From positions 1 through 51,006 of the forward strand of contig CAMBXM010000007.1 in NCBI GenBank assembly GCA_945871815.1: a stretch of DNA of 51,006 nt, given 5' to 3'. Under the pieces are notes generated by a model, which saw only the letters and a list, made by a program, of their open reading frames with translations, ran no database searches and was not told the DNA's origin. Positions 23,868-46,034 of this stretch are shown piece after piece. Source of the DNA: Singulisphaera sp. GP187 (lineage in GTDB: Bacteria > Planctomycetota > UBA1135 > UBA2386). Numbering within the stretch: position 1 is the first letter of the stretch; each line of letters begins with the position of its first letter. A program made the translations under genes and the position numbers.

Positions 23868-23868
23868 A

Positions 23869-25248: not shown

Positions 25249-25251
25249 GCC

Positions 25252-28313: not shown

Positions 28314-29488
28314 GTTTGCGCATCCTCTATCACCATCGCATCCGTGCTGATGACGGCCAAGCCGTTCATGTTCGCGAGCTGATCGAAGCGCTGCGCCACC
28401 GCGGCCACGAAGTCCAAGAGTGCGCCTTGGTGCAGAAGACCAATGCCACCGCGGCGTCGGCCAAGGGCAAGGCCTCGTTCTGGCAACGCCTGTCGTTGCC
28501 TCGCGCCGCGGTCGAGGTGTTGGAGGTAGCCTACAATCGCCGCGCCCGCTCGATGCTGCGCGACGCTGCGGCCAAGTTGCGCCCGCACCTCGTCTACGAA
28601 CGTCATGCGCTGCATTGCCGCGCCGGTCTCGACGTGGCTCGTGAACTCTCTGTGCCGCTCTTGTTGGAGGTCAACTCGCCGATGGCGGACGAGATGGAGA
28701 AACTGGGTCTGCTGCGCTTGCCGCGCCGTGCGCGAGCAACCGAGCGCTTGGTGCTCACCTCCGCGGATCGCGTGCTCGCGGTCACCGAGGTGCTCGGCAG
28801 TCGATTGGTCCAACTCGGCGCGCGCAAAGAGGCGATCCGCGTGATCGGCAACGGGGCAGAGCCTGGGCGCTACGACCTAGCTGCCCGCTCCGCGGGTGAC
28901 GCCATCCGTCGCCGCTGGAACCTGCCCGAAGACGCGGTTGTGGTCGGTTTTGTTGGCTACATGCGGCCGTGGCACCGGCTCGAGCTTGTGCTGTCGCTCA
29001 TGCAGCGACCACAGTTCCGTCATCTGCATCTCGTGCTGCTCGGAGACGGGCCGGCGCTGTCTGGTCTCGTGCAACAGGCGGCATCCGCCTCGCTGCAGTC
29101 GCGCATGCATGTGCTCGGGACCGTTCCGAGTTCGCTCGTGCCGGCTCACGTTTGCGCCTTCGATGTGGCTTTGATTCCGGCGATCAACGACTACGCCTCA
29201 CCGCTCAAGCTGTTCGATTCCCTGGCTGCTGGTGTGGCGACGATCGCGCCCAATCAGGCCAACTTGCGCGAGGTCGTCACCCATGGGGTGCATGCGCTGC
29301 TGTTCGAGCCGGGCGAGATCGAGAGTCTCGCGCAGAATCTGCTGCAGCTCGTCGAGGACTCGGCGCTGCGGCAACGGCTTGGCGCGGCTGGTGAGTCCTT
29401 GCTGCGGCAACGCAACTACACCTGGGACGGCAACGCCGCACGCGTCGAGGCCATTGCCGCAGAACTCTTGCTGGGAGTCGGCACGTGA
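28310..29488 (+). CDS. Glycosyltransferase family 4 (second)
   Basis: A 392-residue GT-B enzyme. The start ILYHHRIRADDGQAVHVRELIEALRHRGHEV is the acceptor-domain opening of GT4 enzymes (shown in pieces: DDGQAVHVREL near residue 14). Later blocks are VIGNGAEPGRYD, VVGFVGYMRPWHRLE, LLGDGPALSGL, and SPLKLFDSLAAGVATIAPNQ, where a classical EX7E first Glu is replaced by the SPLKLFD segment seen in many GT4 members. It lies between another GT4 gene and the exosortase gene, overlapping both by four bases. Donor and acceptor are unknown. Confidence 0.88.
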   Translation: MSLRILYHHRIRADDGQAVHVRELIEALRHRGHEVQECALVQKTNATAASAKGKASFWQRLSLPRAAVEVLEVAYNRRARSMLRDAAAKLRPHLVYERHALHCRAGLDVARELSVPLLLEVNSPMADEMEKLGLLRLPRRARATERLVLTSADRVLAVTEVLGSRLVQLGARKEAIRVIGNGAEPGRYDLAARSAGDAIRRRWNLPEDAVVVGFVGYMRPWHRLELVLSLMQRPQFRHLHLVLLGDGPALSGLVQQAASASLQSRMHVLGTVPSSLVPAHVCAFDVALIPAINDYASPLKLFDSLAAGVATIAPNQANLREVVTHGVHALLFEPGEIESLAQNLLQLVEDSALRQRLGAAGESLLRQRNYTWDGNAARVEAIAAELLLGVGT

Positions 29489-31008
29489 ATCCGATCCTCG
29501 CCGTCATCGCACCCCTGATCCTCGCCTACGCCCTGCCGCTGTGGTGGTGCTGGGAGCTGTGGTCCCTGCCCGAGGGCTACTTCGCGCATGGGCCCCTGGT
29601 CCCGATCGTCATGGCGGCGGTCATCTGGGGGCGTCGATCGGACTGGCGCTCGCGCGAAGCGCGCCTGGACCTTCGCGGGTTATGGTTGCTCGGTCCGGCG
29701 CTGTTCGTGCATATCGTCGGTGCCGCCTTGACCATCGACTCGCTGTCGGCCGCCAGTCTCGTCCTGGCGGTTCCGGGCGCGGCCTGGGTGGCCTTCGGCC
29801 GCGACCGACTTGCTGGTCTCTGGCCAGTGCTTTGGATGTTTGCATTCGCCGTGCCGATGCCCATCTATGTCACCGACCGAGTGGCCTTCGAGTTGAAGGA
29901 GATCGCGGTGCGCGGGGGAGTGTGGCTCGCGGAGAACACCGGGCTTGCGATCACCAACGAAGGTGCGTCGTTGTTCGTTCCTGGCCAGACCGAGTCCTTG
30001 AACGTCGCCGACCCGTGCGGTGGCCTCCGGTCGTTGCTGGCGATGATCACGCTGGTCTATTGCATCGCGTTCTTCGTCGGTCCTAAGACGATGTGGCGGC
30101 GAGTGCTGTTGCTCTTGGCGGCAGCTCCGATCGCCGTGTTCGTCAACCTCCTTCGCATCACTGCGATTTGCTGGCTGGCCTACTTCGAAGGTGTCCAGTT
30201 CGCGAGCGCCACGGGCCACGATGTCTTGAACGGCTTGGCATGGGTCGTCGACCTGACCCTGGTCCTCGGCATGGATGCCCTGCTGTCGCGCAGTCGGGCA
30301 GCGCAACGGAGCTCGGCTGGGCCGCCAACTTCCGAGAGGCTGCCGCTGGCCGCAGTGTTGGCGCCGCCGCCGGCGACTGGTCACTCGGCAACGCGCCTCG
30401 GTGCGGTCTTGTGGCCCTTTGCACTTGGTCTCCTCCTCTTGTCGCTGACCAAGCCGGAAGCAGATCGTTCGGGCCGCGCCGTGGCGCTGCCTGCGGTGAT
30501 CGGGCCTTTTGAGCAGAAGGAACTGTTCGCGATGACGCCGCGCATGTTCCAACTGCTCGGCACCGACGACGCCACCTGGCGGCGCTACGAAGACGAAGCC
30601 CAGCAGACGATGTTTGTCGTCGCTGTGTTTCATGGCAGCAATTGGAAGAGCATCCACCCGCCGCACATCTGCCTGCTTGGTAGCGACATGGACATCGTGG
30701 GGGAAGGGAAGGTGGAGTTGTCGTCGGGCGAGACGGACCAGGCCGGCCGGATCCTGCTGCGGACGCGCCGCGGCGGTCGCCCGTACCTGAGTCTCTATGC
30801 CTACGGCTCGCACGGTCTGTGCACCGGCAGCTATCTCGAGTTCTTCCTGCACCACGCACCGCGAGCGCTGTTTCGCTCGACCAACGACGGCTTCTTGCTG
30901 CGCGTCGAGACCTATGCCGATGGCCCGGGCGGCGAAGCGGCGGCCGATGCGCGCTGCGAAGCGTTACTCGCTTCCCTGATGAAGCAGGCCAGAGGGTTGT
31001 TGCCGTGA
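29485..31008 (+). CDS. Exosortase fused to an EpsI domain
   Basis: The 507-residue product has two parts. Residues 1-270 are a polytopic exosortase, a cysteine transpeptidase-like sorting enzyme, with the expected triad Cys178 (DPCGGLRSLL), Arg224 (VNLLRITAI) and His245 (TGHDVLNGLAW). After a Pro/Ala linker and one more membrane helix (ALGLLLLSL), residues 330-500 form an EpsI (DUF3485) domain with HPPHICLLGSDMDIV. The usual motif is CSGLR; here it is CGGLR. EpsI is encoded separately or fused in exosortase A loci. The start GTG at 29485 overlaps the GT4 stop (GTGA). No PEP-CTERM substrate is in the window. Confidence 0.9.
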   Translation: MNPILAVIAPLILAYALPLWWCWELWSLPEGYFAHGPLVPIVMAAVIWGRRSDWRSREARLDLRGLWLLGPALFVHIVGAALTIDSLSAASLVLAVPGAAWVAFGRDRLAGLWPVLWMFAFAVPMPIYVTDRVAFELKEIAVRGGVWLAENTGLAITNEGASLFVPGQTESLNVADPCGGLRSLLAMITLVYCIAFFVGPKTMWRRVLLLLAAAPIAVFVNLLRITAICWLAYFEGVQFASATGHDVLNGLAWVVDLTLVLGMDALLSRSRAAQRSSAGPPTSERLPLAAVLAPPPATGHSATRLGAVLWPFALGLLLLSLTKPEADRSGRAVALPAVIGPFEQKELFAMTPRMFQLLGTDDATWRRYEDEAQQTMFVVAVFHGSNWKSIHPPHICLLGSDMDIVGEGKVELSSGETDQAGRILLRTRRGGRPYLSLYAYGSHGLCTGSYLEFFLHHAPRALFRSTNDGFLLRVETYADGPGGEAAADARCEALLASLMKQARGLLP

Positions 31009-31010
31009 CG

Positions 31011-31892
31011 ATGGCGCACGCGCTATCGGTCGATGTCGAGGACTGGTTTCAGGTCCTCAACATGAGCCAGCAGATCGACCGAGCGGATTGGGACCGCTTC
31101 GAACTCCGCTGCGTCGATGCAACGCGCCGTTTGCTCGACTTGTTCGATCGGCGACAGGCCCGCGCCACGTTCTTCTTTCTCGGTTGGATCGCCGAGCGCG
31201 CACCGCGCCTCGTCACCGAAGTGCACGCGGCCGGTCATGAGATCGGCAGTCACGGCTACGACCACCAGCTGCTGCCAGATGTCGGGCGCGCGGGCTTCGC
31301 CAACGAACTCCGCCTCACGAGCGACCTGCTCGAGTCGATCTGTGGCGAACGGCCGCGCGCATTCCGGGCTTGCACGTGGTCGATCACCAAGCGCTCGGCG
31401 TGGGCGATCGATGAGTTGCTGGCAGCTGGCTTCACCATCGACAGTTCGATCTATCCAATCTTGCACCCCGACTACGGGGTGCGCGGCGCGCCGAGTTCGC
31501 CGTATCGACTGGCGACCGCTGACGGGGAAGTGCTCGAGGTGCCGCCCTTGTGTTGGGACGTCTTCGGTAGGCGTCTGCCGGTCGGTGGGGGCGGCTATCT
31601 GCGCCTGTTCCCGCTCTGGATGCTGCGCCGAGGACTTTGGCAACAGGAGCGACGTGGAGCGCCGGGCTGCGTCTATCTACACCCGTGGGAAGTGGATCCG
31701 GATCAGCCCCGCCAACCGCTCGGCGGGCTGCGCGGCTTTCGCCACTACGTGAACCTGCGCAAGACCCTGCCCAAACTCGATCGCTTGCTTGGCGAGTTCC
31801 GTTTCACCACGGTGTCCGCGTCGCTCGCTCAGTTCGGCGACAACTGGCGGACGAAGCTGCCGACGTTTCGTGCCAGCGAACTGCTCGGGTAG
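31011..31892 (+). CDS. Polysaccharide deacetylase, exosortase A locus type
   Basis: A 293-residue NodB-homology carbohydrate esterase that would remove acetyl groups from the exopolysaccharide. The N-terminus ALSVDVEDWFQV, the metal-binding SHGYDH, HPWEVDPDQPRQPL and RHYVNLRKTL match the deacetylase subfamily found in exosortase A loci. Asp of DVED and the two His residues are present. The usual RAPSFSI block reads RACTWSIT here. ATG 31011 is used; an in-frame GTG at 31005 would overlap the exosortase stop as GTGA and is equally possible. Its last 64 bases overlap the end of the convergent TPR gene. Confidence 0.9.
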   Translation: MAHALSVDVEDWFQVLNMSQQIDRADWDRFELRCVDATRRLLDLFDRRQARATFFFLGWIAERAPRLVTEVHAAGHEIGSHGYDHQLLPDVGRAGFANELRLTSDLLESICGERPRAFRACTWSITKRSAWAIDELLAAGFTIDSSIYPILHPDYGVRGAPSSPYRLATADGEVLEVPPLCWDVFGRRLPVGGGGYLRLFPLWMLRRGLWQQERRGAPGCVYLHPWEVDPDQPRQPLGGLRGFRHYVNLRKTLPKLDRLLGEFRFTTVSASLAQFGDNWRTKLPTFRASELLG

Positions 31893-34800
31893 CGTTCGAG
31901 CAAGGTCGTGAGATGTTGCTTGGCGCGGATCTTGGCGGGTTGACCTGGCAGCATCAGGTTCGCGAGTGCGCGGGCGAAGAGGCTGAGTTCTCCCTGATCG
32001 CCGGCGGCGGCCAGGAGTTGCTCGGCAGTTGCTGCCGCACCGCGCCGCAACGCGATCAGACCTGCCGCAAATTGGCCGCGCGGGGTCGCGCGCACTTCCG
32101 GCGGTAGGCGCTCGAACATCGAAACGTCTTCGAGCGAGAGGCGCCGATGCGTGGCGGCGAGCGCCACGAACTCGATCGCGAATGCGGGGTCAACAATGTA
32201 GCCAAGGAAGCTCCGGGCGCCGGCGATTCCGACCTGGGCCTCCCGCGCCGCCGTCATGAGGCGGGCGCGTTCGAGCCAAAGCTGCGGCATCGTCGGGTGT
32301 TCGGAGAGCAACGTGTCACACAGCGCGAGCGCCTTCGTTGCGCCTGCTGCCTTCTCCACCAGACCGAGGGCACGAAGCGCGATGCTCCAGTCACCCTTGG
32401 CGCGACAGCAGGCTCGCACCGCCGCCGAGACCATTGCTTCGAGTTCGGTCATCGGCAGGTGCTCGAGCCGTGACTCCTCGGCTAGGAGGTAGGCGAATGC
32501 CTCAGCCTCATGTCGTTGCTGCGTCAAGTCGGCGAGGGCGGCCGCGCGCATCGCATCGCGTGTCGGTTGCGGCAGGTCGCTGCTGCGGCTGGTCGCGAGG
32601 CGGAACAGCGCCCGCGCCGCTTCCTCTTGGTCGCCCTCGGCCCCGATTGCACGCAACTTGGCAAGTAGCTCGAAGGCCGGAAGCACGAGGCCCTGCTCTA
32701 CCAGTCGTTCCGCATCCCGTGGCGTCGCGTTGCTCTGCACCGGCATGGTGCGCCACGTTTCGGCGAGGATTCGCAAGGCCACGTCGGGTTGCCCCTGGCG
32801 TTCGATATCGGCTGCAACATCGAGAGCGACCATCGCCAGGATTTCCGGGGTCAGCGTGGCCGCCTGCTTGGCGGCGGCCTCGCGCAACTCGACCAGGATG
32901 GGCCGCGGCACAACGTAGCCAGGGAGGGCGCGGGCGCGGACGACTTCGCCGTAGAGGGGTAGAGAACGCGATCCGTTCTCGAAGAGGGTGGCGTGAATCG
33001 CTGCAGCGGCGGTGACATCGCCGGCTGCGGCCAACGCGCGTGCATGCAGCATGGCAAGCGTTGGTGAGCTGATCAGTCTCTGGCGCAAGGTCGCTGCGCT
33101 TTGGACGGCTTGGCCTGCGAGTCTTGGTTCGGCAAGCTGGCAGCACAACGTAAGGACCTCGCGTTGGAGATCGGCCGGCGCTCGCCCGAGTTCTTCACCG
33201 AATGGCCTGGGCTTGCCGGTCACAGTCAGGGCGTAGGCCGTGGCCACGAGCAAATCGCTCGGATCGCGAGCCAGCTGCTTCTGGACCAGGACGTTCGCGC
33301 CCGAATGGCCAAGCAGTATGGCGAGGGCCGGATCCTCGACGATCGGTGCCATCGCCAAGGCAGCGATGGCGCGGGCCGTGTCGCCATGCAGGAACTCGAG
33401 TCGCGCCAAACTCTCGGCGGCGTGGACCCCGTCGTCGAAGCTCAGGGCTGCGGTGAAGTGGGTGCGCGCTGCTTCGGTGCGGCCAAGGGCCAACGACAGC
33501 TCGCCGGCCAAGGCGTGCGTGGCGCCGTCGCGAATCTCGATGGCATCGCCGAGGGCGAGGGCCTCGCCAAGCAGCATGCTGGCGGTGCGCGGGCGCTTGG
33601 TCCGCCAGAGGGCCGCTGCCGCGGTCGCAAAGGCGCGCGCTGCCTCGGGACCGTTCCAGTGCAGGTCCGCAACAGCCATGCGCGCGAGTTCGAGCAACAT
33701 GGCGTCCTCGGTGACCGCGGCCGAGGCCGTGAGACACGCGAGGCCAGCGCTCAGGAGATCGGCGCCCGTGCGCGCATCGAGCGTCGGTGGCATCGCGGCA
33801 CGCGCGCGGGCAAGAACGGTCAGAGCGTTGATCGCCTCGCCTTTGCTGGCCACCGCGGTGGCAGCAAGCGCCAACAACTTGGCCGATGCATCGGGCATCG
33901 CAATGGCGCGGCGGGCCAACGCCAGGAGGCCAGGACTGTCGTCTTCGATGGCGCAGCGCAACAGTGCGGCGAGCACGTCCTTCGAATCGGGCATCACGCG
34001 CACTGCCATGGGTAGCAAGGCGCGGACCGGCATTTCATTGGCAGTGCGAACCTCGAACGCCAGGCGAACGGCTTCGTCGCACTCCGGATGCGAGACGATC
34101 AGGCGGTCGAGCACTTCGATCGCGCCTTCGGCATTGTTGGCGAGGATCTCGGCCCGAGCCTCCAGCAAGAACGGCCACCTTGACCAGGGGAATCGATCGG
34201 CGGCCAGTCGCGCACACGACCGTGCTAGTACCGGACGCTGCTGCTTCAGGGCGGCTTCGCCACAGAGGAGATAGCAGATCGGGGCCGGCGGCGCGTCTGG
34301 GCGATCGGTGCCACGTTGGAGACACTGCAGCAGGAGCGAGTTGCCGTCCTGCTGCGAGGCTCGGTAGGCGAGGTCTGCAGCTTCTGCCAAGAGGCGCAGT
34401 GCTTCTTCGTCCTCAGGGCGCTGCTGGAGAATGGCGTTGGCCGTTGCCATGGCAGCAGCTTCCTGACCGAAGCGGATCTGGAGGCGAGCCCGCATGACCT
34501 GCGGCAGCGGATTGCTCGGTCGATAGACACTCCACGAGTCGAGTGTGGCGAGCAGTTCGGTAACCGGCTTGCCGTCACTGATCGCATACTCGATGCGCAA
34601 CGGCATCAGCAGGTCGACCGGGTCGTCGTCATTCTGCGGCGCCGGCTCCCGCAGGCTCATGTCAATGAACCAGCCGAGATTGTTCGCTGTGTGCTCGCGT
34701 TGCTTGCCAAGGACGTTGGCCAAGCCCCACAGGAGTCCGGGTAGGGCGTTGAGGTAACCGCGGCCCTCCATGTACTTCGTGCAGGTCTGCGCCAGGTTGC

Positions 34801-35869
34801 CAAGCTCCTCACGACGACCGAGTCGGTAGAGGGCGAGGGCCTTGATCACGATGAGGCTTCGGATCTGCCAGAGAACTGCGTTCTTGGCGAGTCGCTCGCC
34901 GAGTTGCGCGTCAGGCAGGAAGCGTTCGGCGGCCTCGACTGCGGCTTCGTAGAGACCGTCACGGTAGTTGGCCGCGGTCTCGGCAATCGCAGCGTCCGTG
35001 CGGTAGCCATGACCGTAGGTCGAAAGGTAGATCTCGGACTGGGCCACGAGATCGTCGGTCCGTTCGGCTTGTTGCAGTGCAAAGGCAACGCCGTTGTAGG
35101 CAGCGGCAAACAGGTTGTTGCCTCGCTGCGTTGGTTCGGATCCGGCGACTTCGAGGGCGCGCTGGAAGAGCGTGAGTGCTTCCTGCACGCGCTCGCGCAA
35201 GCCTCGCAGTTGGTCGTGCAGAACTGGCCACTTCTGCGCCAGCCGCGCTTCGCGGCTGTAGAGGATCTGTAGCTTCTGCCGAGCCGCCTCGATGCCGGGA
35301 TCGCCTTCCGGCCGGTACACGAATTCGAGGAACGCCGCCATGCCGTCGCGCTGGTCGTCGTAGCCGAGTTCAGCACGGAGGTTCTTCGAGGTCTCGCGGA
35401 GCGGGTCGGTGTAGGCAACCTTGCAGGCTTCGGCCGCCAGCTCGAGACCGCGTGCCACGTTCGGATTGGCGGCGGTGAACTCGAGCGCCAGCTTGCGGGC
35501 TTCGTCACCCTGGCCCAGGCGACCAAGGTAGTACACACGGTCCATGCGCAACGAGAGATCTTCATCGCCCTCGCGGATGAGGTTCTCGATGTCGTCGAGG
35601 GCGCGACGGGGTACGTCGAGCGTGCGATGGGCTTGCAGCCGCATCTTCCAAACCTCGCGCCGAAGGCCTGGCGTGTTCAGCAGTGCGGGTGAGACCTCGC
35701 TCTGATCGAGCAGCTTGACGCCTGCCACGGCTTCGCCCTGCTGTAGCTTCATGCGGGCATCGGCCAGCAGATCTTCGGGACCGCGCAGCGGCAACAGCGC
35801 GTAGCCCACCGTGAACGCGAGGCTCAACAGCAGAAGGGCGAGAATGAGGATCAGGCTGCGCCGGAACAT
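31829..35869 (-). CDS. Large TPR-repeat protein with N-terminal membrane anchor (PrsT-like)
   Basis: The 1346-residue product opens with one hydrophobic segment (LILILALLLLSLAFTVGYALL), so it is likely anchored with the rest in the periplasm. The remainder is alpha-helical and Ala/Leu-rich with many degenerate TPR-like pairs (for example LFQRALEVAGSEPTQRGNN and ALSLALGRTEAARTHFTAAL). Position beside a sigma-54 activator and a kinase-like gene in an exosortase locus suggests the role of PrsT, the TPR protein of XrtA systems, although that protein is usually shorter (about 900 residues) and a lipoprotein; no lipobox is seen. A sigma-54-like site lies 57 bases upstream. Its 3' end overlaps the deacetylase gene by 64 bases. 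Confidence 0.8.
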   Translation of the reverse strand: MFRRSLILILALLLLSLAFTVGYALLPLRGPEDLLADARMKLQQGEAVAGVKLLDQSEVSPALLNTPGLRREVWKMRLQAHRTLDVPRRALDDIENLIREGDEDLSLRMDRVYYLGRLGQGDEARKLALEFTAANPNVARGLELAAEACKVAYTDPLRETSKNLRAELGYDDQRDGMAAFLEFVYRPEGDPGIEAARQKLQILYSREARLAQKWPVLHDQLRGLRERVQEALTLFQRALEVAGSEPTQRGNNLFAAAYNGVAFALQQAERTDDLVAQSEIYLSTYGHGYRTDAAIAETAANYRDGLYEAAVEAAERFLPDAQLGERLAKNAVLWQIRSLIVIKALALYRLGRREELGNLAQTCTKYMEGRGYLNALPGLLWGLANVLGKQREHTANNLGWFIDMSLREPAPQNDDDPVDLLMPLRIEYAISDGKPVTELLATLDSWSVYRPSNPLPQVMRARLQIRFGQEAAAMATANAILQQRPEDEEALRLLAEAADLAYRASQQDGNSLLLQCLQRGTDRPDAPPAPICYLLCGEAALKQQRPVLARSCARLAADRFPWSRWPFLLEARAEILANNAEGAIEVLDRLIVSHPECDEAVRLAFEVRTANEMPVRALLPMAVRVMPDSKDVLAALLRCAIEDDSPGLLALARRAIAMPDASAKLLALAATAVASKGEAINALTVLARARAAMPPTLDARTGADLLSAGLACLTASAAVTEDAMLLELARMAVADLHWNGPEAARAFATAAAALWRTKRPRTASMLLGEALALGDAIEIRDGATHALAGELSLALGRTEAARTHFTAALSFDDGVHAAESLARLEFLHGDTARAIAALAMAPIVEDPALAILLGHSGANVLVQKQLARDPSDLLVATAYALTVTGKPRPFGEELGRAPADLQREVLTLCCQLAEPRLAGQAVQSAATLRQRLISSPTLAMLHARALAAAGDVTAAAAIHATLFENGSRSLPLYGEVVRARALPGYVVPRPILVELREAAAKQAATLTPEILAMVALDVAADIERQGQPDVALRILAETWRTMPVQSNATPRDAERLVEQGLVLPAFELLAKLRAIGAEGDQEEAARALFRLATSRSSDLPQPTRDAMRAAALADLTQQRHEAEAFAYLLAEESRLEHLPMTELEAMVSAAVRACCRAKGDWSIALRALGLVEKAAGATKALALCDTLLSEHPTMPQLWLERARLMTAAREAQVGIAGARSFLGYIVDPAFAIEFVALAATHRRLSLEDVSMFERLPPEVRATPRGQFAAGLIALRRGAAATAEQLLAAAGDQGELSLFARALANLMLPGQPAKIRAKQHLTTLLERYPSSSLARNVGSFVRQLSPN

Positions 35870-35989: not shown

Positions 35990-37369
35990 TCACCGGACGC
36001 CGTAGCGGCGGAGTTTGGCGAACAAGGTGCTGCGGTTGATACCGAGCACTTTGGCGGCACGTTCGCGATTGCCGTCGCAGTGCACGAGCGCCTGTTCGAG
36101 GATGCGTCGCTCGGCAGCGTCGAGTGCGGTGCGCAGTGGCTGCACCGGTTCGAGCGCGACCGGCGGTGTGGCGGCGTTCGCAGCTGCAGGTAGAGCATCC
36201 TGTTCAACGAGATTCGGCGGCAGGTCGGCCACGTCGATGACCGGCGACTGGCTGAACACGACGGCGCGTTCCAGGACGTTCTCGAGTTGGCGGACGTTGC
36301 CGGGCCAGCGGGCTCGACGCAGAACTGCAGTGGCGGCTGGAGTCAGTCGCTCGACGCGCTTGCCGTGGTCCTTGGCGAAGCGCCGCAGGAAGTGCATCGC
36401 CAATGCCGGGATGTCCTCCTGTCGTTGGCGCAGCGGCGGCATCTCGATCGAGACGACATTGATGCGGTAATAGAGGTCTTCGCGGAACCGTCCGTCGCGA
36501 ACGGCCTGCTCGAGATCGAGGTTGGTGGCCAGCACGATGCGGACATCCAGTGCGATCGTGCGGTTGTCGCCGACGCGTTCGAGCACGCGATCTTGGAGGA
36601 CGCGGAGGAGCCGCACTTGGAACGCCGGGGTGCTGGTGCCGATCTCGTCGAGGAAGATCGTGCCGCCATGAGCCGCTTCGAACTTGCCCGGCTTGTCCTT
36701 GATCGCGCCCGTGAACGACCCTCGGACATGGCCGAAGAGCTCCGATTCGAGCAGGGTCTCGGGCAGCGCGCCGCAGTTGACCTCGACGAAGGGACCGTTG
36801 CGCCGCGGGCTGAGCGCGTGCAAGCCGCGTGCGACAACCGTCTTGCCGGTGCCCGATTCGCCGGTGACCAGGACGGTCGTGCGCGTGTCGGCGACCGCGC
36901 GCACGGTCTTGAAGATCGCCTGCATGCGCGGGTCTTCGCCGATCAGGTTGCCAATCTGCACCCGGTCGTCGAGCGCCTGACGGAGATTCTGGTTCTCGCG
37001 AACCAGGAGCGAACGCTCGAGCGCGCGATCGATGGCTAGGCGCGCTTGGTCGGCGCTGAACGGCTTGCGCAACAGATCGGCCGCGCCCTCGCGCATGGCG
37101 TGGACGGCATCATCGACCGAGCCGAACGCCGTGGTGAGGATCACAGCCGTCGTCGGATGGCTCCGGCGTACTGCGGCCAGCAGTTCGATGCCGGGAAGGT
37201 CGGGCAGATCGGCGTCGCAGATGAGGAGATCGATGTCGCCGTCATCGACTGCACGAATGGCAGCCTCGCCTGTGGTCGTCGCTTCGACGATATGCCCAGA
37301 TCGAACCAAGACGTCATGGAGTGACTCCTGGCTCTGGGGATCGGAATCGGCGACGAGGACCTTGGCCAT
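35990..37369 (-). CDS. Sigma-54-dependent response regulator, NtrC family (PrsR-like)
   Basis: The 459-residue product has three domains. The receiver (1-120) carries Asp52 as probable phosphate acceptor (LICDADLP), Thr79/80 and Lys102. The AAA+ domain (about 145-375) has Walker A GESGTGKT (170-177), the sigma-54 contact loop GSFTGA (217-222; the consensus GAFTGA has Ala where Ser stands), and Walker B GGTIFLDEIG. A Fis-type helix-turn-helix ends the protein (RERAAKVLGINRSTLF). It would activate RpoN-dependent promoters. The ATG at 37369 begins the receiver; an ATG at 37399 lies just ahead of a hairpin. In exosortase A loci this is the place of PrsR. Confidence 0.93.
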   Translation of the reverse strand: MAKVLVADSDPQSQESLHDVLVRSGHIVEATTTGEAAIRAVDDGDIDLLICDADLPDLPGIELLAAVRRSHPTTAVILTTAFGSVDDAVHAMREGAADLLRKPFSADQARLAIDRALERSLLVRENQNLRQALDDRVQIGNLIGEDPRMQAIFKTVRAVADTRTTVLVTGESGTGKTVVARGLHALSPRRNGPFVEVNCGALPETLLESELFGHVRGSFTGAIKDKPGKFEAAHGGTIFLDEIGTSTPAFQVRLLRVLQDRVLERVGDNRTIALDVRIVLATNLDLEQAVRDGRFREDLYYRINVVSIEMPPLRQRQEDIPALAMHFLRRFAKDHGKRVERLTPAATAVLRRARWPGNVRQLENVLERAVVFSQSPVIDVADLPPNLVEQDALPAAANAATPPVALEPVQPLRTALDAAERRILEQALVHCDGNRERAAKVLGINRSTLFAKLRRYGVR

Positions 37370-37466: not shown

Positions 37467-38516
37467 TCAGTGGCGTGGCAGTTCGATATCGATGGCAATG
37501 GCGGCGTCTGGCAATCGTCGAGCCGTCACCTGCCCACGGTGCGCATGCACGGCGGTCTGCAACAGGAAGAACGACAGGCCGTGGGCGCTGCCTCGCAGCA
37601 CTCGGCAGAGGTAGTAGGGTTCCCAAGTCCGCGGCAACTGCCAATCGCCAAACGCGTCGCCACGCAGAGACAGGCGCAGCCGTACAGCCGCATCGATTCG
37701 GGTCACGACAAAGTGCACCGTGGCGCCGGCTTCCTCGAACTCGAGTGCGGCGGCGGCAAGGCCGTCGAATGCCGGGCGTAGGATCTCGGGGTCGCCAGGC
37801 ACCAAGAACGAACCCCGCGCCGGCTCACGCACCACGGTTGGTGTCGCGCGCCCAGAAGTTCGGCGCTTCAGGCTGGCTTCGAGTGCCGTGCGAACGTCGA
37901 AGGGATCGGCTCGACGCGGACCGGCAGCGGCGTGTTCGATGCCGGCAAGGCGCTCGACCGTCGCCTTGATCCGGTGGGCGCCATCGATGGCCGCTGCGAT
38001 CTGGTCCATTGCGTCGCGGTGGTCCGGCCCTTCGAGCTGCAACTGGAGGAGTTGCAGGTAGCCGAGCAAGAACTGCAGTGGGTTGTTGATCTCGTCGGCG
38101 ACGCCGTGGAGGAGATCCAGGAACACCTCGCTACGCGGCCGGTCGCCGCTGAAGAGCGCCGCGTCGACGACACGCGCGACCTCGGCCCGAGAATGCGGCA
38201 AGCGCAGTAGGTCCGCCCCGATCCGCTGCCTCAAGGCTGCGAGTTCTACTTCCCGGGCGCTCGGGGCGACGAGCACGAAGGCGACGAGGGGGCACAGTCG
38301 CTTGGTCAACACCAAGGCGCCCGTCAACTCGTCGAGGTTGGCGCCTTCCTCCAGGCCGACGAACAACAGGTCAGGGTCGAGCGCCAGCAAGCCGTCGATT
38401 GCCTGGAACACCGAACTGAAGCTGCGGACCTGCAGCTGTCGCGGCAAGGCCTCCAGTTCGGCCTGGAGCCGGCTGTCTTCGATGCCAGCGAGCCCGATGC
38501 GCACAGGCCTGTCCAT
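37467..38516 (-). CDS. Degenerate histidine-kinase-like protein with pseudo-receiver (PrsK position)
   Basis: The 349-residue product looks like a soluble sensor kinase that has lost key residues. Residues 1-120 resemble a receiver domain but lack its acidic pocket. The H-box reads GVADEINNPLQFL: Asp141 (codon at 38094-38096) replaces the His that is normally phosphorylated. Beyond it a dimerisation helix continues. In the ATPase-like part the N-box reads FDGLAAAALEF without the Asn, and no DxGxG loop is found; only GLSFFLLQTAVHAHRGQVTA recalls the end of the fold. It is therefore unlikely to autophosphorylate. It precedes the sigma-54 regulator, 97 bases away. Confidence 0.85.
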   Translation of the reverse strand: MDRPVRIGLAGIEDSRLQAELEALPRQLQVRSFSSVFQAIDGLLALDPDLLFVGLEEGANLDELTGALVLTKRLCPLVAFVLVAPSAREVELAALRQRIGADLLRLPHSRAEVARVVDAALFSGDRPRSEVFLDLLHGVADEINNPLQFLLGYLQLLQLQLEGPDHRDAMDQIAAAIDGAHRIKATVERLAGIEHAAAGPRRADPFDVRTALEASLKRRTSGRATPTVVREPARGSFLVPGDPEILRPAFDGLAAAALEFEEAGATVHFVVTRIDAAVRLRLSLRGDAFGDWQLPRTWEPYYLCRVLRGSAHGLSFFLLQTAVHAHRGQVTARRLPDAAIAIDIELPRH

Positions 38517-38643: not shown

Positions 38644-39033
38644 ATGCACGACGACGGCAACCAGCCACCGGAGGATGGGCTCGGTGGAGCGGGCACGCAT
38701 ACGCCGCTGCCATGGGGGCATCCGTCGGCCGCTACTACTGCCGAAGCCAAGCTGAAAGTGCGGTTGCGCCGCGAGTTCAAGGGTCTGACCGTGCGCGATC
38801 TGATCGCCGACCTCGGCCTCGATGAGCAGTTGCCGGGTCGCGTTCAAGGCGCGCTCGACCATATCGCGCGCGGCGATCTGGCCGCCGCCGAGCGCACGTT
38901 GCCAGGTCACTTCGCCACCGTCTTGCAAGGTCCGGGGCATCGTTCCTCGCACTACCGCCGACTCCGAGTTCGTTGGATCGTGCTCGTCGCGCTTGCGGCG
39001 GCAGCGGTGTCCGCGACGATGACCCTCTTGTAG
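38644..39033 (+). CDS. Small protein with C-terminal membrane anchor
   Basis: The function is unknown. The 129-residue product starts with a Gly/Pro-rich hydrophilic stretch, then a charged helical domain (KLKVRLRREFKGLTVRD and ALDHIARGDLAAAERTLPG), and ends in a basic patch (HYRRLRVRW) with one membrane helix (IVLVALAAAAVSATMTLL). This is a tail-anchored layout with the soluble part likely in the cytoplasm. It carries no PEP motif. It lies just before the GT2 genes, 11 bases from the first, and divergent to the kinase-like gene. Confidence 0.7.
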   Translation: MHDDGNQPPEDGLGGAGTHTPLPWGHPSAATTAEAKLKVRLRREFKGLTVRDLIADLGLDEQLPGRVQGALDHIARGDLAAAERTLPGHFATVLQGPGHRSSHYRRLRVRWIVLVALAAAAVSATMTLL

Positions 39034-39044
39034 GTCTGCGCACG

Positions 39045-40067
39045 ATGCCACAGGCCTACGAAGCACCCCCCTCGACGATGGCGATCCTGGAGCCGCGCGG
39101 CCCAACCCAACCCGCACCTGACGTCAGCGTCGTCGTGCCCATTTACAACGAACGCGACAACTTGGCGCCGCTCTACTCGGCGCTGACCTTTGCGCTGCGT
39201 GACCTCGGTCGCAGCTATGAGATCGTCTTGGTTGACGACGGCAGTCGCGATGGTGGGCGCAACACCATGCGTGCGCTGGCCGCGGGCGATCCACACTTGC
39301 GTCTGGTGTTCTTTCGCCGCAACTACGGCCAGACGGCGGCAATGGCAGCCGGCTTCCAGCAGTCGCGCGGCCGCATCGTCGTGACGATGGATGGCGACCT
39401 GCAGAATGACCCGGCAGACATCGGCCGCTTGCTCGAACGCATCGACCAGGGCTACGACGTGGTTTGTGGTTGGCGTCGAAACCGGCAGGACCGCGTGGCC
39501 ACGCGCCTGTTGCCGAGCCGTTTTGCGAACCTGCTGATCGCTCGCGTCACCGGCGCCCGGATCCACGACACCGGCTGTTCGCTCAAGGCCTACCGCGGCT
39601 GGGTTGTGCGCACGCTCCACCTGTATTCGGACATGCACCGATTCATGGCGGCGCTCGGCGTGGGCATCGGCGCGCGCATCACCGAACTCCCTGTGAGGCA
39701 CCATGCGCGACATGCGGGCAAGTCGAAGTACGGTCTGGGCCGCATCTTTCGTGTTCTCGCCGATTTGGTCGGCATCAAGATGCTGATCAACTTCGCCGCC
39801 CACCCGATTCGCTGGTTCTTGCTGTTGTCGTTGCCGCTGTTCTTCGTCGCGCCGGCGCTGTTCGTGCTCGGCTTCGTCAAGGTCAGCGTCGATGGCTCGT
39901 GGCACTGGTTCCAGGACTACGATCTCGCGGCGGTGGCGGCTGGCTCCGTCGCGTTCCTGGTTGCCGCCAACGTCTTTCTTCTCGGGTTCCTAGCCGAACT
40001 GCAGATCAAGGTGTCGCGGTTCTTCCGTCAGCGGATCTCCGTCACCGCTCGGGAGGCCAGTCGATGA
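39045..40067 (+). CDS. Glycosyltransferase family 2 (DPM1/GtrB-like)
   Basis: A 340-residue GT-A enzyme that would transfer a sugar onto polyprenyl phosphate or a lipid-linked glycan. The catalytic part opens VSVVVPIYNERDNL, has VDDGSRDGG (from residue 63), FRRNYGQTAAMAAGF, and the DXD motif MDGDLQNDP (Asp116, Asp118). Two C-terminal membrane helices (LLLSLPLFFVAPALFVLGF and AVAAGSVAFLVAANVFLLGFL) follow, as in polyprenyl-phosphate GT2 enzymes. ATG 39045 is used; ATG 39078 is possible. The next gene overlaps by four bases (ATGA) and its GT2 domain looks like a decayed copy of this one. Confidence 0.92.
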   Translation: MPQAYEAPPSTMAILEPRGPTQPAPDVSVVVPIYNERDNLAPLYSALTFALRDLGRSYEIVLVDDGSRDGGRNTMRALAAGDPHLRLVFFRRNYGQTAAMAAGFQQSRGRIVVTMDGDLQNDPADIGRLLERIDQGYDVVCGWRRNRQDRVATRLLPSRFANLLIARVTGARIHDTGCSLKAYRGWVVRTLHLYSDMHRFMAALGVGIGARITELPVRHHARHAGKSKYGLGRIFRVLADLVGIKMLINFAAHPIRWFLLLSLPLFFVAPALFVLGFVKVSVDGSWHWFQDYDLAAVAAGSVAFLVAANVFLLGFLAELQIKVSRFFRQRISVTAREASR

Positions 40068-42328
40068 GCGTCCATACACTCGTCTCAGTCGTCGTCCCGA
40101 TCGGCAACCCCGAAGCGCAGCCCCAGAAAGTGGTCACCGCGCTCTACGAAGCGCTGACGCAGGGCGGCTATGCGGTTGAGTTCGTGCTCGTGCTCGACGG
40201 GCCTGTGGGACCAGTAGAACGCCAGATCGAGTCGATGCAGTGCAGTTGTCCGATCAAGATCGTGCGACTCCAGGGCGGCGGACTGGGAGAGTCCATCGCA
40301 CTGTCGGCCGGCGTAGCGAGGGCCGAGGGCATCTACATCGTCAACGTCCCGCCGTACTTGCAGACCGAACCGGAGGACGTCCTCAAGGTGGTGGCGGCGC
40401 TCGAAGCCGGCGCCGACTGTGTCGCAACGTGGCGCACGCCGCGAGTCGATCCGTGGCTCAATCAACTGCAGTCGCGGTTGTTCAACTTCATGCTGCGCGT
40501 CGTGATGGGAATGCCCTACCACGATCTGAACTCGGGCACGCGCGGGTTCCGCAAGCAGGTGTTGGAGGAAGTCAGCGTCTACGGCGAGCTCTACCGCTTT
40601 CTGCCGGTACTGGCGCTGCGGCAGGGCTTCCGCGTCGTCGAGGTCAAGGTCCGTCACCGCGAGGAACGCGGGCGCGCCGGGTTTTATGGCGTCGGGGTCT
40701 ACCTGCGTCGCCTGCTCGACATCCTCGCGATCTCGTTCCTCACGCGTTTCACGCAGCAGCCCTTGCGGTTCTTTGGCTATGTGGGCTTCCTGGGCATGGT
40801 GCTCGGTGTGGCTCTCGCCGCGCAGCCGATCTACGCCAAGCTGTTCTTGGGCGTCGGCCTCGCTGACCGTCCGCTATTCGTCATCGGCGCCATTCTGGCG
40901 GCGTTTGGCGTGCAGCTCATTGGCTTTGGCCTGATCGGCGAGATCATCATCTTTACGCAGGCTCCGAACCTGCGCGACTACAAGGTCGAAGAGGTGATTG
41001 AAGGCGGCGCGGAAGTGGTGTCGACCCATGGCGAAGGCAGCCGCGGCCCGAGCGATCCGATCGCGGCGGTGGTGGATCTGCTGCCGGTGACAGCCACGAA
41101 AGGGGCGCCGGAGCCATTGCCGTTGCCACTGCCGGAGCACGAGGGCGCGCTCCCTCCGCCGCCGCGTCCGGCCGCGATTGCGATCAATCCGGCTGCCAGC
41201 GCGACAGCAACAAGCGAAGGTCCGCCGAGAGAGATGGAGAATGGCGCGGCGGCTTCGCCCGTCGATCTCACGACGATGCGGGTCCGAGAGCTGCTGCCCG
41301 GAGAGGACTCCCGCTGGGATGCCTTCGTCACGCGGCACCCACACGGCTCCTTCTTCCATCTGAGCGGTTGGCGGCGGTGCACGACCGAGGTGTTCCACCA
41401 CGAGCCGCACTACCTAATCGTCGAGCAGGGTCGCCGCTGGATCGGTGTGCTGCCGCTGTTCCTGGTGAAGAGCCCCTTCTTGGGCCGCAATCTGATCAGC
41501 GTGCCCTACGGCGTCTATGGCGGGGCGCTCGCCGAGTCCCTACATGCGCAGCAAGCACTGCTGGACTATGCCGCCGAGCTCGGCCGCCGACTCGCTGCCG
41601 GCTATGTCGAGCTGCGCCACCTGGAGGAACGTCCTGGCGTGCGCACCAACTCGCAGCTCTACGTGACGTTCCGCTGCAACCTGCCTGATGATCCTGCCAA
41701 GGTCTTGCCAGCCATCCCGAAGAAGGCGCGTGCCGAAGTGCGCCGGGCCCGGCGACCGCAGGGCGGTGAAGAGGTCGGGCATGGTCTCAGTGTGCAATCC
41801 GATTGCGATCTCGACATGTTCTTCGATCTGTTTGCGGAGAACAAACAGCGGCTCGGTTCGCCGGCGCTGCCCAAGCGCTGGTTCGCGGCGCTGTGCGAGG
41901 AGTTCGGCCGCAAAGTCGTCTTCCATCGCGTTGTGGATCCACAGGGCAAGACCCTGGCCGCGGTGATGAGCTTCTTGTTCCGCGACACAGTCAATGCCTA
42001 CTACTCAGGCTCACTGACCGGCATCAACGACACGGGTGCCAACAACCTCATCTACTGCGGCATCATGGAGTGGGCCGTGGAAGAAGGATTCACGCGGTTC
42101 GACTTTGGCCGAAGCCGACTGGAGTCGGGCCCGGCGCACTTCAAGAAGAACATGGGCTTCGTCTCGGAGCCGCTTCGCTACGAGTACATCCTCGTCGGTG
42201 ATGGCGCCAAGCCGCCTGACTTCCACCCAGGCAACCCCAAGCTGGACCTGCCACGCCGAATGTGGTCCAAGATGCCAACCATGTTCGCCAACCGACTGGG
42301 GGCGCGACTGTCGCGCTATCTGCCTTGA
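40064..42328 (+). CDS. Fusion of a degenerate GT2 domain with a FemAB-like (exosortase-associated) domain
   Basis: The 754-residue product has two parts. Residues 1-310 resemble the preceding GT2 enzyme, with two membrane helices at about 235-256 and 268-298. The active-site Asp pairs are lost, however: VDDGS reads VLDGP (43-47) and the DXD segment reads VPPYLQ (95-100). A Pro/Ala linker runs to about 403. Residues 404-754 are a FemAB-type acyltransferase-like domain with WDAFVTRHPHGSFFHLSGW, VPYGVYGGAL, IPKKARAEVRRA, RFDFGRSR and FKKNMGF, matching the FemAB family of XrtA loci. It may join an amino acid or acyl group to the polymer; the substrate is unknown. Overlaps the upstream GT2 (ATGA) and the next gene (TTGA). 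Confidence 0.88.
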   Translation: MSVHTLVSVVVPIGNPEAQPQKVVTALYEALTQGGYAVEFVLVLDGPVGPVERQIESMQCSCPIKIVRLQGGGLGESIALSAGVARAEGIYIVNVPPYLQTEPEDVLKVVAALEAGADCVATWRTPRVDPWLNQLQSRLFNFMLRVVMGMPYHDLNSGTRGFRKQVLEEVSVYGELYRFLPVLALRQGFRVVEVKVRHREERGRAGFYGVGVYLRRLLDILAISFLTRFTQQPLRFFGYVGFLGMVLGVALAAQPIYAKLFLGVGLADRPLFVIGAILAAFGVQLIGFGLIGEIIIFTQAPNLRDYKVEEVIEGGAEVVSTHGEGSRGPSDPIAAVVDLLPVTATKGAPEPLPLPLPEHEGALPPPPRPAAIAINPAASATATSEGPPREMENGAAASPVDLTTMRVRELLPGEDSRWDAFVTRHPHGSFFHLSGWRRCTTEVFHHEPHYLIVEQGRRWIGVLPLFLVKSPFLGRNLISVPYGVYGGALAESLHAQQALLDYAAELGRRLAAGYVELRHLEERPGVRTNSQLYVTFRCNLPDDPAKVLPAIPKKARAEVRRARRPQGGEEVGHGLSVQSDCDLDMFFDLFAENKQRLGSPALPKRWFAALCEEFGRKVVFHRVVDPQGKTLAAVMSFLFRDTVNAYYSGSLTGINDTGANNLIYCGIMEWAVEEGFTRFDFGRSRLESGPAHFKKNMGFVSEPLRYEYILVGDGAKPPDFHPGNPKLDLPRRMWSKMPTMFANRLGARLSRYLP

Positions 42329-42671: not shown

Positions 42672-43265
42672 ATGGCTGACGACGAAGCGAAACTGACCGA
42701 GCAACTGCGCGCGGGTGACGATGCCGCCTTCGCTCCCCTGTTCGAGGCCCAGCGCGATCGCTTGCGCCGCATGGTGCAGTTCCGGCTCGATCCTCGCCTG
42801 TTCGGTCGCATCGATCCGGAGGACGTCGTGCAGGAGGTCTATCTGGCGGCGCAGCAACGGCTCTATGCCTTCCGTGGCGACCAACACCCACTGCCACTGT
42901 GGCTGCGATTGGTGGGGCAGCAGACCCTGATCGACCTGCATCGCCGCCACCTGGGGGCCAGCAAGCGCAGCGCTGCCAAGGAACGAGCCTTTGCCAATAG
43001 CCACGGGCTCTCTGGCTTCATCGCGGGTTCGCTGACGTCGCCGAGCCAAGCGGCGATGCGCGACGAACAAAAGCAGCAACTAACGGTCGCGCTGGACTCG
43101 ATGGACGAGATCGATCGCGAAGTACTGACGCTGCGCCACTTCGAAGATCTGACCAACAAGGAGGTCGCTGAGTTGCTCGGCATCGGCGAGAACGCCGCGA
43201 GCAATCGCTACGTCCGCGCCCTGACCCGTTTGAAGGGACTGCTCGGCGGGTTCCAGGCGCCGTAG
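42672..43265 (+). CDS. ECF-type RNA polymerase sigma factor
   Basis: A 197-residue extracytoplasmic-function sigma factor. Region 2 contains LFEAQRDRLRRMVQFRLDP and RIDPEDVVQEVYLAA, and region 4 has LTNKEVAELLGIGENAASNRYVRALTRLKG as its DNA-recognition helix-turn-helix (in pieces: KEVAELLGIGENAAS). The ATG at 42672 opens the conserved part. It lies three bases before a Ser/Thr kinase gene, the ECF-kinase pairing common in planctomycetes, so the kinase may control it by phosphorylation. No anti-sigma factor gene is present. Confidence 0.92.
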   Translation: MADDEAKLTEQLRAGDDAAFAPLFEAQRDRLRRMVQFRLDPRLFGRIDPEDVVQEVYLAAQQRLYAFRGDQHPLPLWLRLVGQQTLIDLHRRHLGASKRSAAKERAFANSHGLSGFIAGSLTSPSQAAMRDEQKQQLTVALDSMDEIDREVLTLRHFEDLTNKEVAELLGIGENAASNRYVRALTRLKGLLGGFQAP

Positions 43266-43268
43266 GCG

Positions 43269-46034
43269 ATGAGCGACCGCGACGGAATTCAGGGCGAGAG
43301 TCGGGAGCCCTTGGATCTACTGGCTGAGGAGTTCCTGCAACGGGTCCGCAAGGGCGAGTCGATCTCCGCCAGACAGTTTGCAGCGCTCCATCCGGCGCAT
43401 GGTCAAGAACTGAGCGACCTGCTGGATACGCTGCTTCTGCTCGAGAACGCGAAGCGCGACCGCGAGACCTCGGTATCCGGTGGTCGTCGCCTGCAACTGC
43501 CGAAGCTCGAACGACTCGGCGAATATCGAATCGTGCGCGAAGTCGGGCGCGGCGGCATGGGCGTCGTCTTCGAGGCCGTGCAGGAATCGCTCGATCGACG
43601 CGTGGCCCTCAAGGTCTTGCCGCAAGCCAGCCTACTGAGTGGCAACCAGCTCGAGCGCTTCCGTCGAGAGGCGCAGACGGCGGCGCGGTTGCACCACACG
43701 CACATCGTGCCGGTGTTCGACAGCGGTGAGGCCGACGGGTTGCACTTCTACGCCATGCAGTTCATCGATGGCCGCAGCCTCGACATGGTCGTGAAATCGC
43801 TACGTGCGGAACCGTCTTCGGGGGCGTCGACCGTGCTGCGCGATCGTTGTCGTCTGGCCGCGCGGCTTGGCGCCGAGGTCGCCGATGCGCTCCATCACGC
43901 CCACCAGCAAGGGACGCTCCACCGGGATGTCAAGCCGGCGAACTTGTTGCTTGATGGCGACGAACACGTCTGGGTGACGGACTTCGGCCTCGCAAAAGCC
44001 CTGCAGCACGATGGCCTCACGCACACGGGCGATGTCCTCGGCACGCTGCAGTACATGGCGCCCGAGCAGTTCTCCGGGCACTACGACGCGCGCAGCGAGG
44101 TGTACGCGCTCGGCGCGACGCTGTTCGAACTGATCGCCTTGCGACCGGCCTTTGCCGCCGAATCGCGAGCGGAATTGATCGACCGCATCCGCGCCGGTCG
44201 CTGCGAACGACTCCGCCGCTTGCTGCCAACGATCCCACATGACCTCGAGACCATCGTGGCGCGCGCGATGGCGATCGAGCCCGCCCGGCGTTACGCGACC
44301 GCCGCGGAGTTCGGGAGCGACCTTCGAGCGTATCTCGAAGATCGTCCGATCGCGGCGCGGCGTCAGTCGGGTCTGGAATTGCTCAGCGGCTGGTGCCGCC
44401 GCAATCGGGCACTCGCCTCGGCTGGCGTCATCGCCGTGGTCGCAACGGTCACGGCAGCCGTTGTTGGCTGGAGCGCGTACTGGACCACAAGGGAGGCGCT
44501 GAACCTTCGGACCGCCAGCGAACGCGCCGCAATCCAGAGCCAGCAAGCTGCGCTACAAGCCAGCGAACGCGATCGAGCCAACCTCGAGGACACGTTGGAG
44601 GTCTTCGAGGACGTGTTCGATACGATTGTCGGCCCCGACCCGCTCTATGCCCTCCTCGAAGACGCGGAGGAGAATGGTGCAACCGTCACTGCCTTGCGAG
44701 CACCGGTCGACACCAACGCGCTCGCGCTGCTCGAGCGCATGCTCGACTTCTACGACAAGTTCGCCGAGCGCAATCGCGACAACGCAACTCTTCGCCATCA
44801 GACGGCGCGCAGCTATGCCCGCGTCGGCACCATCCAGGAGCGCCTCGGCGCGCACGACGAGGCGGTGGCGGCCTACGAGCGAGCAGCGACGCTGCTGCGT
44901 GAGATCGGGGACCCTGAACAAAAGGACGAACTCGCAGCCCTGTTGCAGGAGCTGGGGCAGGTGCAAGTCCGTCGCGGGCAGCCCCGAGTCGCGGCTTCGT
45001 GCTACTCACAGTCGCTAGAGATCCTGGAGAAGGGGGCGGTCGATCCCTTGCCCAAGGTGCGCTGGCTCGGCGCGCGTGCGCACTATCTGCTGGCAACTGT
45101 GCCGGGATTTCGTGAAGGCCGCGGTGAACTGATGCGGGGCTTTGCCGGTGGTCCTGCGGGAGGCGCAGATGCATTACCGCGTGCGCGACGCAATGCGGCT
45201 CGCGAACGGCGCCGAGACTCCGAGCCTTCGCTTGCTCCACCGCGAGATCCGCTCGCCGAGCCGTCCTTTGCCCAGTTGCAGCAACAGGCGCGCGGGCACA
45301 TCGAGGCGGCCCTTCTGACCCTGCGGGCTCTCTTGGCCGAGGATCAAGAGAGCTCCGAGTATCGGTTTCTGCTCGCCCGCTGTTTGATCGAGCAAGCGCG
45401 AATGGCGGGGCGCGCGGAGCCCAACCTTTTGAGTGCCTCGATGCAGGAAGCGCTCGCCATCCTGAAGCAGCTCGTGGCCGAGCAACCAAAGAACGACGCC
45501 TATCGATTTGAGTTGTGCGAGGCGCAGTTGCCACCTTCTCGGGCACGCAGTCCGGGCGGCCCGACGCCTGCGGTCCTCGAACAATTGGTGTCCGAGGCGC
45601 GGACGCTGGTGGAGCACCAACCGCTGCATCCTGAGTTTCAGGCCTTGCTCGCGCGCGCCCTCAGTTTGTGGGGGAGTCGCGTCCACGAAGCCGAGTCGCA
45701 ACGAGATCCGCGCGCTGGTCTGGCACCGTTGGAAGAAGCGCTGGCGTTGCAGCGCACGCTTGGTACCGACCGGAAGCCGAGGGAGCCGCGATTCGCGGCG
45801 GAAGAGATGCAGACGATGCGGCGAATCGTTCGCGTCAAGTTGGATGCCGGAGACGTGGAGGCCGCCAAGACAACTGCACGGCAACTGGTGACCAGCTTGA
45901 TCGCCGCGCAGCGCGAGGGTGGCGGCTTCGGACGACTCGAAGACCGGCTCGGCGATCTTCCTCAGCTCCTGCAGCGCTTGGGCCTAAGCGAACTGATGCG
46001 GGAACTCGAGGAAGCGGAGCGGCGACGGCGCTGA
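43269..46034 (+). CDS. Membrane Ser/Thr protein kinase with C-terminal TPR-like region
   Basis: The 921-residue product carries a short planctomycete-type N-terminal region, then a Hanks-type kinase domain (about 86-360) with GRGGMG (94-99), Lys115 in ALKVL, HRDVKPANLLL (218-228), DFG (238-240) and APE (264-266). A membrane helix (AGVIAVVATVTAAVVGW) lies near residues 385-401. The rest is helical and TPR-like, for example YARVGTIQERLGAHDEAVAAYERAA, seen near residue 530. Such kinases sit with the catalytic part in the cytoplasm. It probably acts on the adjacent sigma factor. All catalytic residues are intact. Confidence 0.92.
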   Translation: MSDRDGIQGESREPLDLLAEEFLQRVRKGESISARQFAALHPAHGQELSDLLDTLLLLENAKRDRETSVSGGRRLQLPKLERLGEYRIVREVGRGGMGVVFEAVQESLDRRVALKVLPQASLLSGNQLERFRREAQTAARLHHTHIVPVFDSGEADGLHFYAMQFIDGRSLDMVVKSLRAEPSSGASTVLRDRCRLAARLGAEVADALHHAHQQGTLHRDVKPANLLLDGDEHVWVTDFGLAKALQHDGLTHTGDVLGTLQYMAPEQFSGHYDARSEVYALGATLFELIALRPAFAAESRAELIDRIRAGRCERLRRLLPTIPHDLETIVARAMAIEPARRYATAAEFGSDLRAYLEDRPIAARRQSGLELLSGWCRRNRALASAGVIAVVATVTAAVVGWSAYWTTREALNLRTASERAAIQSQQAALQASERDRANLEDTLEVFEDVFDTIVGPDPLYALLEDAEENGATVTALRAPVDTNALALLERMLDFYDKFAERNRDNATLRHQTARSYARVGTIQERLGAHDEAVAAYERAATLLREIGDPEQKDELAALLQELGQVQVRRGQPRVAASCYSQSLEILEKGAVDPLPKVRWLGARAHYLLATVPGFREGRGELMRGFAGGPAGGADALPRARRNAARERRRDSEPSLAPPRDPLAEPSFAQLQQQARGHIEAALLTLRALLAEDQESSEYRFLLARCLIEQARMAGRAEPNLLSASMQEALAILKQLVAEQPKNDAYRFELCEAQLPPSRARSPGGPTPAVLEQLVSEARTLVEHQPLHPEFQALLARALSLWGSRVHEAESQRDPRAGLAPLEEALALQRTLGTDRKPREPRFAAEEMQTMRRIVRVKLDAGDVEAAKTTARQLVTSLIAAQREGGGFGRLEDRLGDLPQLLQRLGLSELMRELEEAERRRR

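Follow-up and report, generated by a model that had tools for sequence, protein, structure and literature searches.

A pseudo-histidine kinase with a fixed aspartate at the phospho-histidine site, and a neighbouring sigma-54 regulator with a degenerate receiver, in uncultured Planctomycetota

DivL carries Tyr at the phospho-His site and binds a response regulator without kinase activity (PMC4211667), and 0.9% of bacterial HisKA domains lack the His (PMC12632262). On the receiver side, loss of any one of five residues (the acidic pair DD, the phospho-Asp D, T and K) defines a pseudo-receiver; DD2 of the acidic pair, which binds the metal directly, is the residue most often lost, and the field regards the way in which pseudo-receivers are switched as a mystery (PMC12632262). 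Examples of pseudo-histidine kinases and of pseudo-receivers are known; at the locus described here, both halves of one gene pair decay in a single lineage. A HisKA protein with the His replaced by a fixed Asp was not found in a literature search that was thin on subscription papers.

The DNA analysed (51,006 nucleotides, hereafter the window) belongs to the genome G000 of an uncultured member of the Planctomycetota (4.19 Mb, 286 contigs, 88% complete). It encodes on the reverse strand a pseudo-histidine kinase of 349 aa (PSK, 37467..38516), whose ORF was borne out as real, with ATG at 38516 and the stop at 37467. In an AlphaFold model built on 24 natural sequences (mean pLDDT, 85.4), the protein consists of a CheY-fold pseudo-receiver (residues 1-123; 38148..38516), a DHp helical hairpin of the HisKA type (residues 129-197; 37926..38132) and a degenerate ATPase domain of the HATPase_c fold (residues 204-347; 37476..37907), all on the reverse strand. 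The best structural match in the PDB was LvrB (8vc9, E 4.5e-11), and DivL (4q20) was also among the matches. The Pfam profile HisKA (PF00512) aligned with residues 134-189 of the window protein at 26.4 bits, 0.5 bit under its gathering score of 26.9, and HATPase_c gave 12.3 bits, far under its cut-off of 26.4; over the alignment of the PSK family at E<=0.01, HisKA was matched in 24/24 members and HATPase_c in 21. The DHp hairpin is recognised by profile and by fold, which places PSK in the HisKA fold family.

The H-box of PSK is DLLHGVADEINNPLQFLLGYLQLL (GVADEINNPL), with Asp141 (codon GAC, 38094..38096, reverse strand) at the phospho-His position. At the N-box Asn column the window protein has Ala, and other members of the Asp clade have F, L, V, I, A, C or P; the G1 block reads RGDAF, and DxGxG is present in no Asp-clade member. 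F-box-like (FEPYY..R.LRG) and G2-like (HGLxLFLxQ) segments are retained, and the N-terminal pseudo-receiver has no DD pair, phospho-Asp or Lys. The preliminary description, made from the window alone, had reported Asp at the His site, the missing N-box Asn and DxGxG and the empty receiver-like pocket, all of which were confirmed by the alignment and the codon. Its view of PSK as a pseudokinase also held: the phosphoacceptor His is present in 0/34 orthologs, the N-box Asn and the G1 DxGxG are absent wherever Asp-clade members cover them, and since the His is gone in every ortholog together with two key ATP-site motifs, autophosphorylation is very unlikely. A substitute His or a shifted H-box was considered for His137 (position -4) and rejected, the residue there being R, H or K among family members and Ala throughout the sister family.

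Asp occupies site 141 in 29/29 sequences of the family that cover the H-box and in 5/5 of the sister family, which belongs to the same order; the family itself comprises uncultured Planctomycetota. Sequencing error and single-strain mutation, the latter raised in the preliminary description as the meaning of a His in close relatives, are ruled out by this count (34/34), His being found outside the clade only. Only 8 of the 349 columns of PSK are invariant across both families (27 + 5 full-length sequences), and Asp141 is one of them; Pro146, Leu147, Gly152 and Gln155 are also invariant. The H-box helix is the best-conserved part of the protein (mean majority fraction 0.79 versus 0.57 overall), as would be expected if a receiver-docking surface had been kept while catalysis was dropped. 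A search of 84,980 species genomes with the pattern [AS]D[EA][IV]NNPL[LMQ] returned 25 relatives, corresponding to PSK family loci, and among the best 30 loci from 392 genomes drawn across the phylum the Asp type was confined to the two families. PSK orthologs were present in nearly all of the 34 family genomes, in about 17 genera, and dN was below dS in 8/8 pairs compared (ratios about 0.10-0.50, with dS partly saturated), so that PSK is a conserved protein without the His, kept under selection, as a pseudo-histidine kinase should be. This breadth, the dN below dS and the invariant Asp make it very improbable that PSK is a passive relic heading for loss beside an orphan regulator phosphorylated by an unrelated kinase through cross-talk, although one sister genus is already without PSK.

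In the PSK tree, built without column 141, the Asp group lay on one side of a single branch (support 100/99), and a single His/Asp change is therefore enough. Relatives outside the order (f18, f68, f103, f41, f54 and f71) have His, apart from one with Gln. In f41, f54 and f71 the homologous gene lies at the same place, divergent from the homologous GT2 gene. The N-box Asn and a DxGxG-like motif are retained in f41, f54 and f18; f71, f68 and f103 have the His and have lost the N-box Asn, with DxGxG lost as well in f71 and f68; and the Asp clade has lost all three. Because f71, f68 and f103 hold the His without the N-box Asn, loss of the ATP site appears to have preceded that of the His, read on an unrooted tree in which the f71, f68 and f103 losses may be separate. 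An independent loss of the His is seen in a further relative, at L077 (G398:C12), which has Gln in its place (IAQEINNPL) and retains DSGRG. Several His-type relatives adjoin a REC-GAF-HD-GYP regulator, and the partner has therefore changed over time. Such Rec-DHp-CA relatives lie beside REC-GAF-HD-GYP regulators at L149, L150, L151, L157 and L158, and in several of them another kinase gene lies immediately upstream; these neighbours suggest an ancestral relay to an HD-GYP output.

The gene 97 bp downstream of PSK encodes an NtrC-type sigma-54 regulator of 459 aa (receiver, AAA+ and Fis HTH; 35990..37369, reverse strand), which likely starts at the ATG at 37369 rather than at a TTG at 37498. 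It has the marks of a sigma-54 activator (PF00158, 231 bits; G[AS]FTGA in all family and sister-family orthologs checked), and the genome encodes sigma-54 (two Sigma54_DBD matches). Orthologs were found in most family genomes, scoring at least 507 bits when complete, and paralogs scored at most 371 bits; G013 and G033 had paralogs only. The preliminary description had taken this receiver for apparently intact, which proved wrong. Its acidic pair is D-S in the window, the metal-binding DD2 position being Ser9 (37343..37345, reverse strand), and D-P, D-S or D-A in 30/30 family orthologs. The phosphoacceptor position is Asp52 in the window (37214..37216, reverse strand) and Glu in five of the 30 (G005, G009, G010, G015 and G022) as well as in the sister-family genome G055; on the regulator tree, sister family included, Asp-to-Glu takes 4 steps, 3 of them forced by well-supported branches. 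The Thr/Ser switch is Ala in 5/30 (G007, G009, G014, G016 and G023), and Lys is retained in all 30. As a control, 20 paralogous NtrC receivers, taken from 12 of these genomes, were all canonical (DD/ED, D, T/S, K). Under the published definition (PMC12632262) the regulator is a pseudo-receiver protein because DD2 is lost, and the earlier statement that its phosphate must come from elsewhere found no support either. Some phosphorylation may still take place, since DD1, Lys and, in 25/30 orthologs, the phospho-Asp are kept. Two sister-family regulators with an acidic DD2 adjoin an Asp-type PSK.

The kept phospho-Asp is one reason to consider that PSK might be a kinase-dead phosphatase or sink, which through a DHp phosphatase motif removes phosphate placed on the regulator by another kinase or by acetyl-phosphate. 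Phospho-His mutants of HisKA kinases lose phosphotransfer and not phosphatase activity (PMC7005713), and PSK has the H+4 Asn in 31/32 full-length members and the H+1 Glu in 24/27 family members. The H+1 Glu is, however, missing in the other 3 family members and in 5/5 of the sister family, DD2 of the presumed substrate is lost throughout, and all five family genomes with a Glu-type regulator still have PSK with its Asp, which speaks against such a role. Taken together, a phosphatase role is considered unlikely.

The third gene of the unit encodes a TPR-like protein of 1346 aa (31829..35869, reverse strand), which matched no NCBIfam model at E<=0.001 and travels with the regulator; the three genes directly follow one another, as PSK, regulator and TPR, in the window and also at 9 further loci of the family and 4 of the sister family. 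Divergent from PSK lie, on the forward strand, a family-conserved gene for a 129-aa protein with a C-terminal hydrophobic segment (38644..39033), a GT2 glycosyltransferase gene (39045..40067) and a GT2 + FemAB fusion (40064..42328), the C-terminal part of which belongs to the XrtA/PEP-CTERM FemAB family (TIGR03019, 306 bits versus a cut-off of 260). The 129-aa protein has a core of R.EFKGLTV.DL....LPGQ...AL..IE.GDLAAAE.ALPG and no Pfam match, and genes of similar size occupy its place in the sister genus g34 despite the PSK loss there; in f71 relatives two separate genes stand in place of the GT2-FemAB fusion. An exosortase and an XrtA-type polysaccharide deacetylase (TIGR03006 over cut-off) are encoded at 29485..31892 (forward strand), in an exosortase/EPS cluster (22251-31892, forward strand) that also holds a chain-length determinant, an amidotransferase and two GT4s; its exosortase has an EpsI-like C-terminus, and an O-antigen-ligase-like protein scored over the exosortase A-associated ligase cut-off. 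At 42672-46034 (forward strand) an RNA polymerase sigma-factor-like gene is followed by a large Ser/Thr protein-kinase-like protein, as read by eye from the translation. A simple home-made consensus scan for conserved -24/-12 sigma-54 promoters in the cluster gave no consistent site.

The regulator and TPR genes, together with exosortase and deacetylase genes, have moved elsewhere in many derived genera, in which PSK has stayed next to the genes for the small protein with the hydrophobic C-terminus, GT2 and GT2-FemAB; the PSK-regulator link is therefore weaker than the PSK-GT2 link. At L116-L135, from derived genera, the EPS cluster lies in two places, one with the regulator, TPR, deacetylase, exosortase and GT4 genes and the other with the PSK and GT2 genes. 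Apart from PSK, no gene tagged as kinase-like adjoined the regulator in the linked or the relocated arrangement, and a hidden kinase at the relocated regulator was rejected as a candidate, its conserved neighbours being the TPR gene, genes for exosortase and deacetylase, and a block of six genes in which the family profile matched no kinase.

This arrangement allows for a different partner: PSK might heterodimerise with or dock on another kinase or response regulator, or act on polysaccharide enzymes, and its link to the sigma-54 regulator would be incidental. In keeping with this, PSK keeps its divergent position to GT2/GT2-FemAB at those family loci that have flanks, and likewise at sister-family loci, GT2 also stays beside the gene in several His-type relatives, and His-type homologs occur at the same place with another NtrC partner or none, the regulator adjoining the f71 homologs not being an ortholog of the window regulator. 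Left unexplained are the parallel decay of the sigma-54 regulator's receiver, the joint absence of PSK and regulator in G052 and in the incomplete assemblies G013 and G033, and the receiver change in the sister genus g34 (G049 and G061). There, the slot between GT2 and the regulator no longer holds PSK, and the receiver of the regulator has lost 3 residues where alpha1 begins, with additional changes in its pocket (K-to-R in one). Alpha1 is the usual DHp-docking helix of receivers, and the change in this one lineage fits the loss of a docking partner. A different partner is regarded as fairly unlikely.

The reading we favour, to which we give about even weight, is that PSK may be a DivL-like pseudokinase controlling the sigma-54 regulator by binding, largely without phosphate. 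In this model PSK would descend from a kinase of the Rec-DHp-CA type in which the ATP site was lost and, on one occasion, Asp took the place of the phospho-His. The present protein would neither autophosphorylate nor donate phosphate; as a dimeric DHp scaffold it would most likely dock on the neighbouring sigma-54 activator, at the receiver, and set that activator's state, largely or wholly without phosphate, with either activation or restraint as the presumed sign. Input may reach PSK through its own N-terminal pseudo-receiver, and the output of the pair is likely the exosortase/exopolysaccharide cluster, as the presumed regulon. The basis of the model is what can be read from the genes, namely the fixed Asp, the lost ATP motifs, the degenerating partner receiver and the gene linkage, and together these suggest a classic signalling pair rebuilt for binding instead of phosphate transfer. 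The model is supported by decay of the partner receiver beside canonical paralogs in the same genomes, by retention of PSK in all five Glu-bearing family genomes, by the altered alpha1 of the genus that lost PSK, and by the linkage of the PSK, regulator and TPR genes with no other kinase tagged nearby and no PrsK. It is weakened by the separation of regulator and PSK in many derived genera, by the acidic DD2 of the two sister-family regulators and by the family genome G031, an incomplete assembly in which the regulator is present and PSK was not found. For PSK, binding is the most plausible mode of action left, direct contact being what we infer. A more specific version, which takes up the phospho-mimic idea of the preliminary description, is quite improbable: Asp141 on the DHp helix would enter the phosphorylation pocket of the partner, replace the phosphoryl group and contact the kept Lys and Thr/Ser (phosphomimicry in trans), and the lost metal-binding Asp would leave space for the additional carboxylate.

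The lineage offers outgroups of the His type at this locus, intermediates that have the His and lack the ATP-site Asn, regulators with Asp-to-Glu changes and a genus without PSK, and is a natural series for asking whether a two-component pair can signal without phosphate. It also offers a starting point for understanding how exosortase/EPS clusters are regulated in Planctomycetota without PrsK. In the PrsK/PrsR/PrsT genes of the PEP-CTERM/exosortase system (Haft et al. 2006, PMC1569441), a kinase-slot protein, an NtrC-type regulator and a TPR protein likewise stand in tandem near exosortase/EPS genes. PrsK, unlike PSK, is a transmembrane kinase and is absent from the PSK family: TIGR02916 was over its cut-off of 300 bits in 0/34 family genomes and was not among the matches of the window PSK at E<=1. 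The regulator scored 405.3 bits on the PrsR model TIGR02915, under the cut-off of 502.6, so that membership of the pair in PrsK/PrsR was rejected, and of the earlier label "PrsR-like" the gene context alone stands. LvrB of Leptospira, the prototype Rec-controlled histidine kinase and best structural match, shares the Rec-DHp-CA architecture with PSK and is an active kinase with a phosphorylatable Rec Asp and a catalytic His (PMC13269768), both of which PSK lacks; several His-type Planctomycetota relatives lie beside another kinase gene, which is reminiscent of a relay. The sigma-54 regulator resembles the known pseudo-receivers and atypical response regulators (PMC12632262) in its loss of DD2, and differs from them in that degeneration also affects the protein in the kinase slot and can be traced across genera. 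DivL of Caulobacter and other alphaproteobacteria is, like PSK, a HisKA/HATPase protein in which the phospho-His is fixed as another residue throughout the lineage (PMC4211667). It has PAS domains, retains motifs N, G1, F and G2 and senses phosphorylated DivK (PMC4211667), whereas PSK has Asp, has lost N and G1, and carries a pseudo-receiver as input domain opposite a degenerate partner receiver. If PSK does act by binding, DivL would be the closest known system in how it works.
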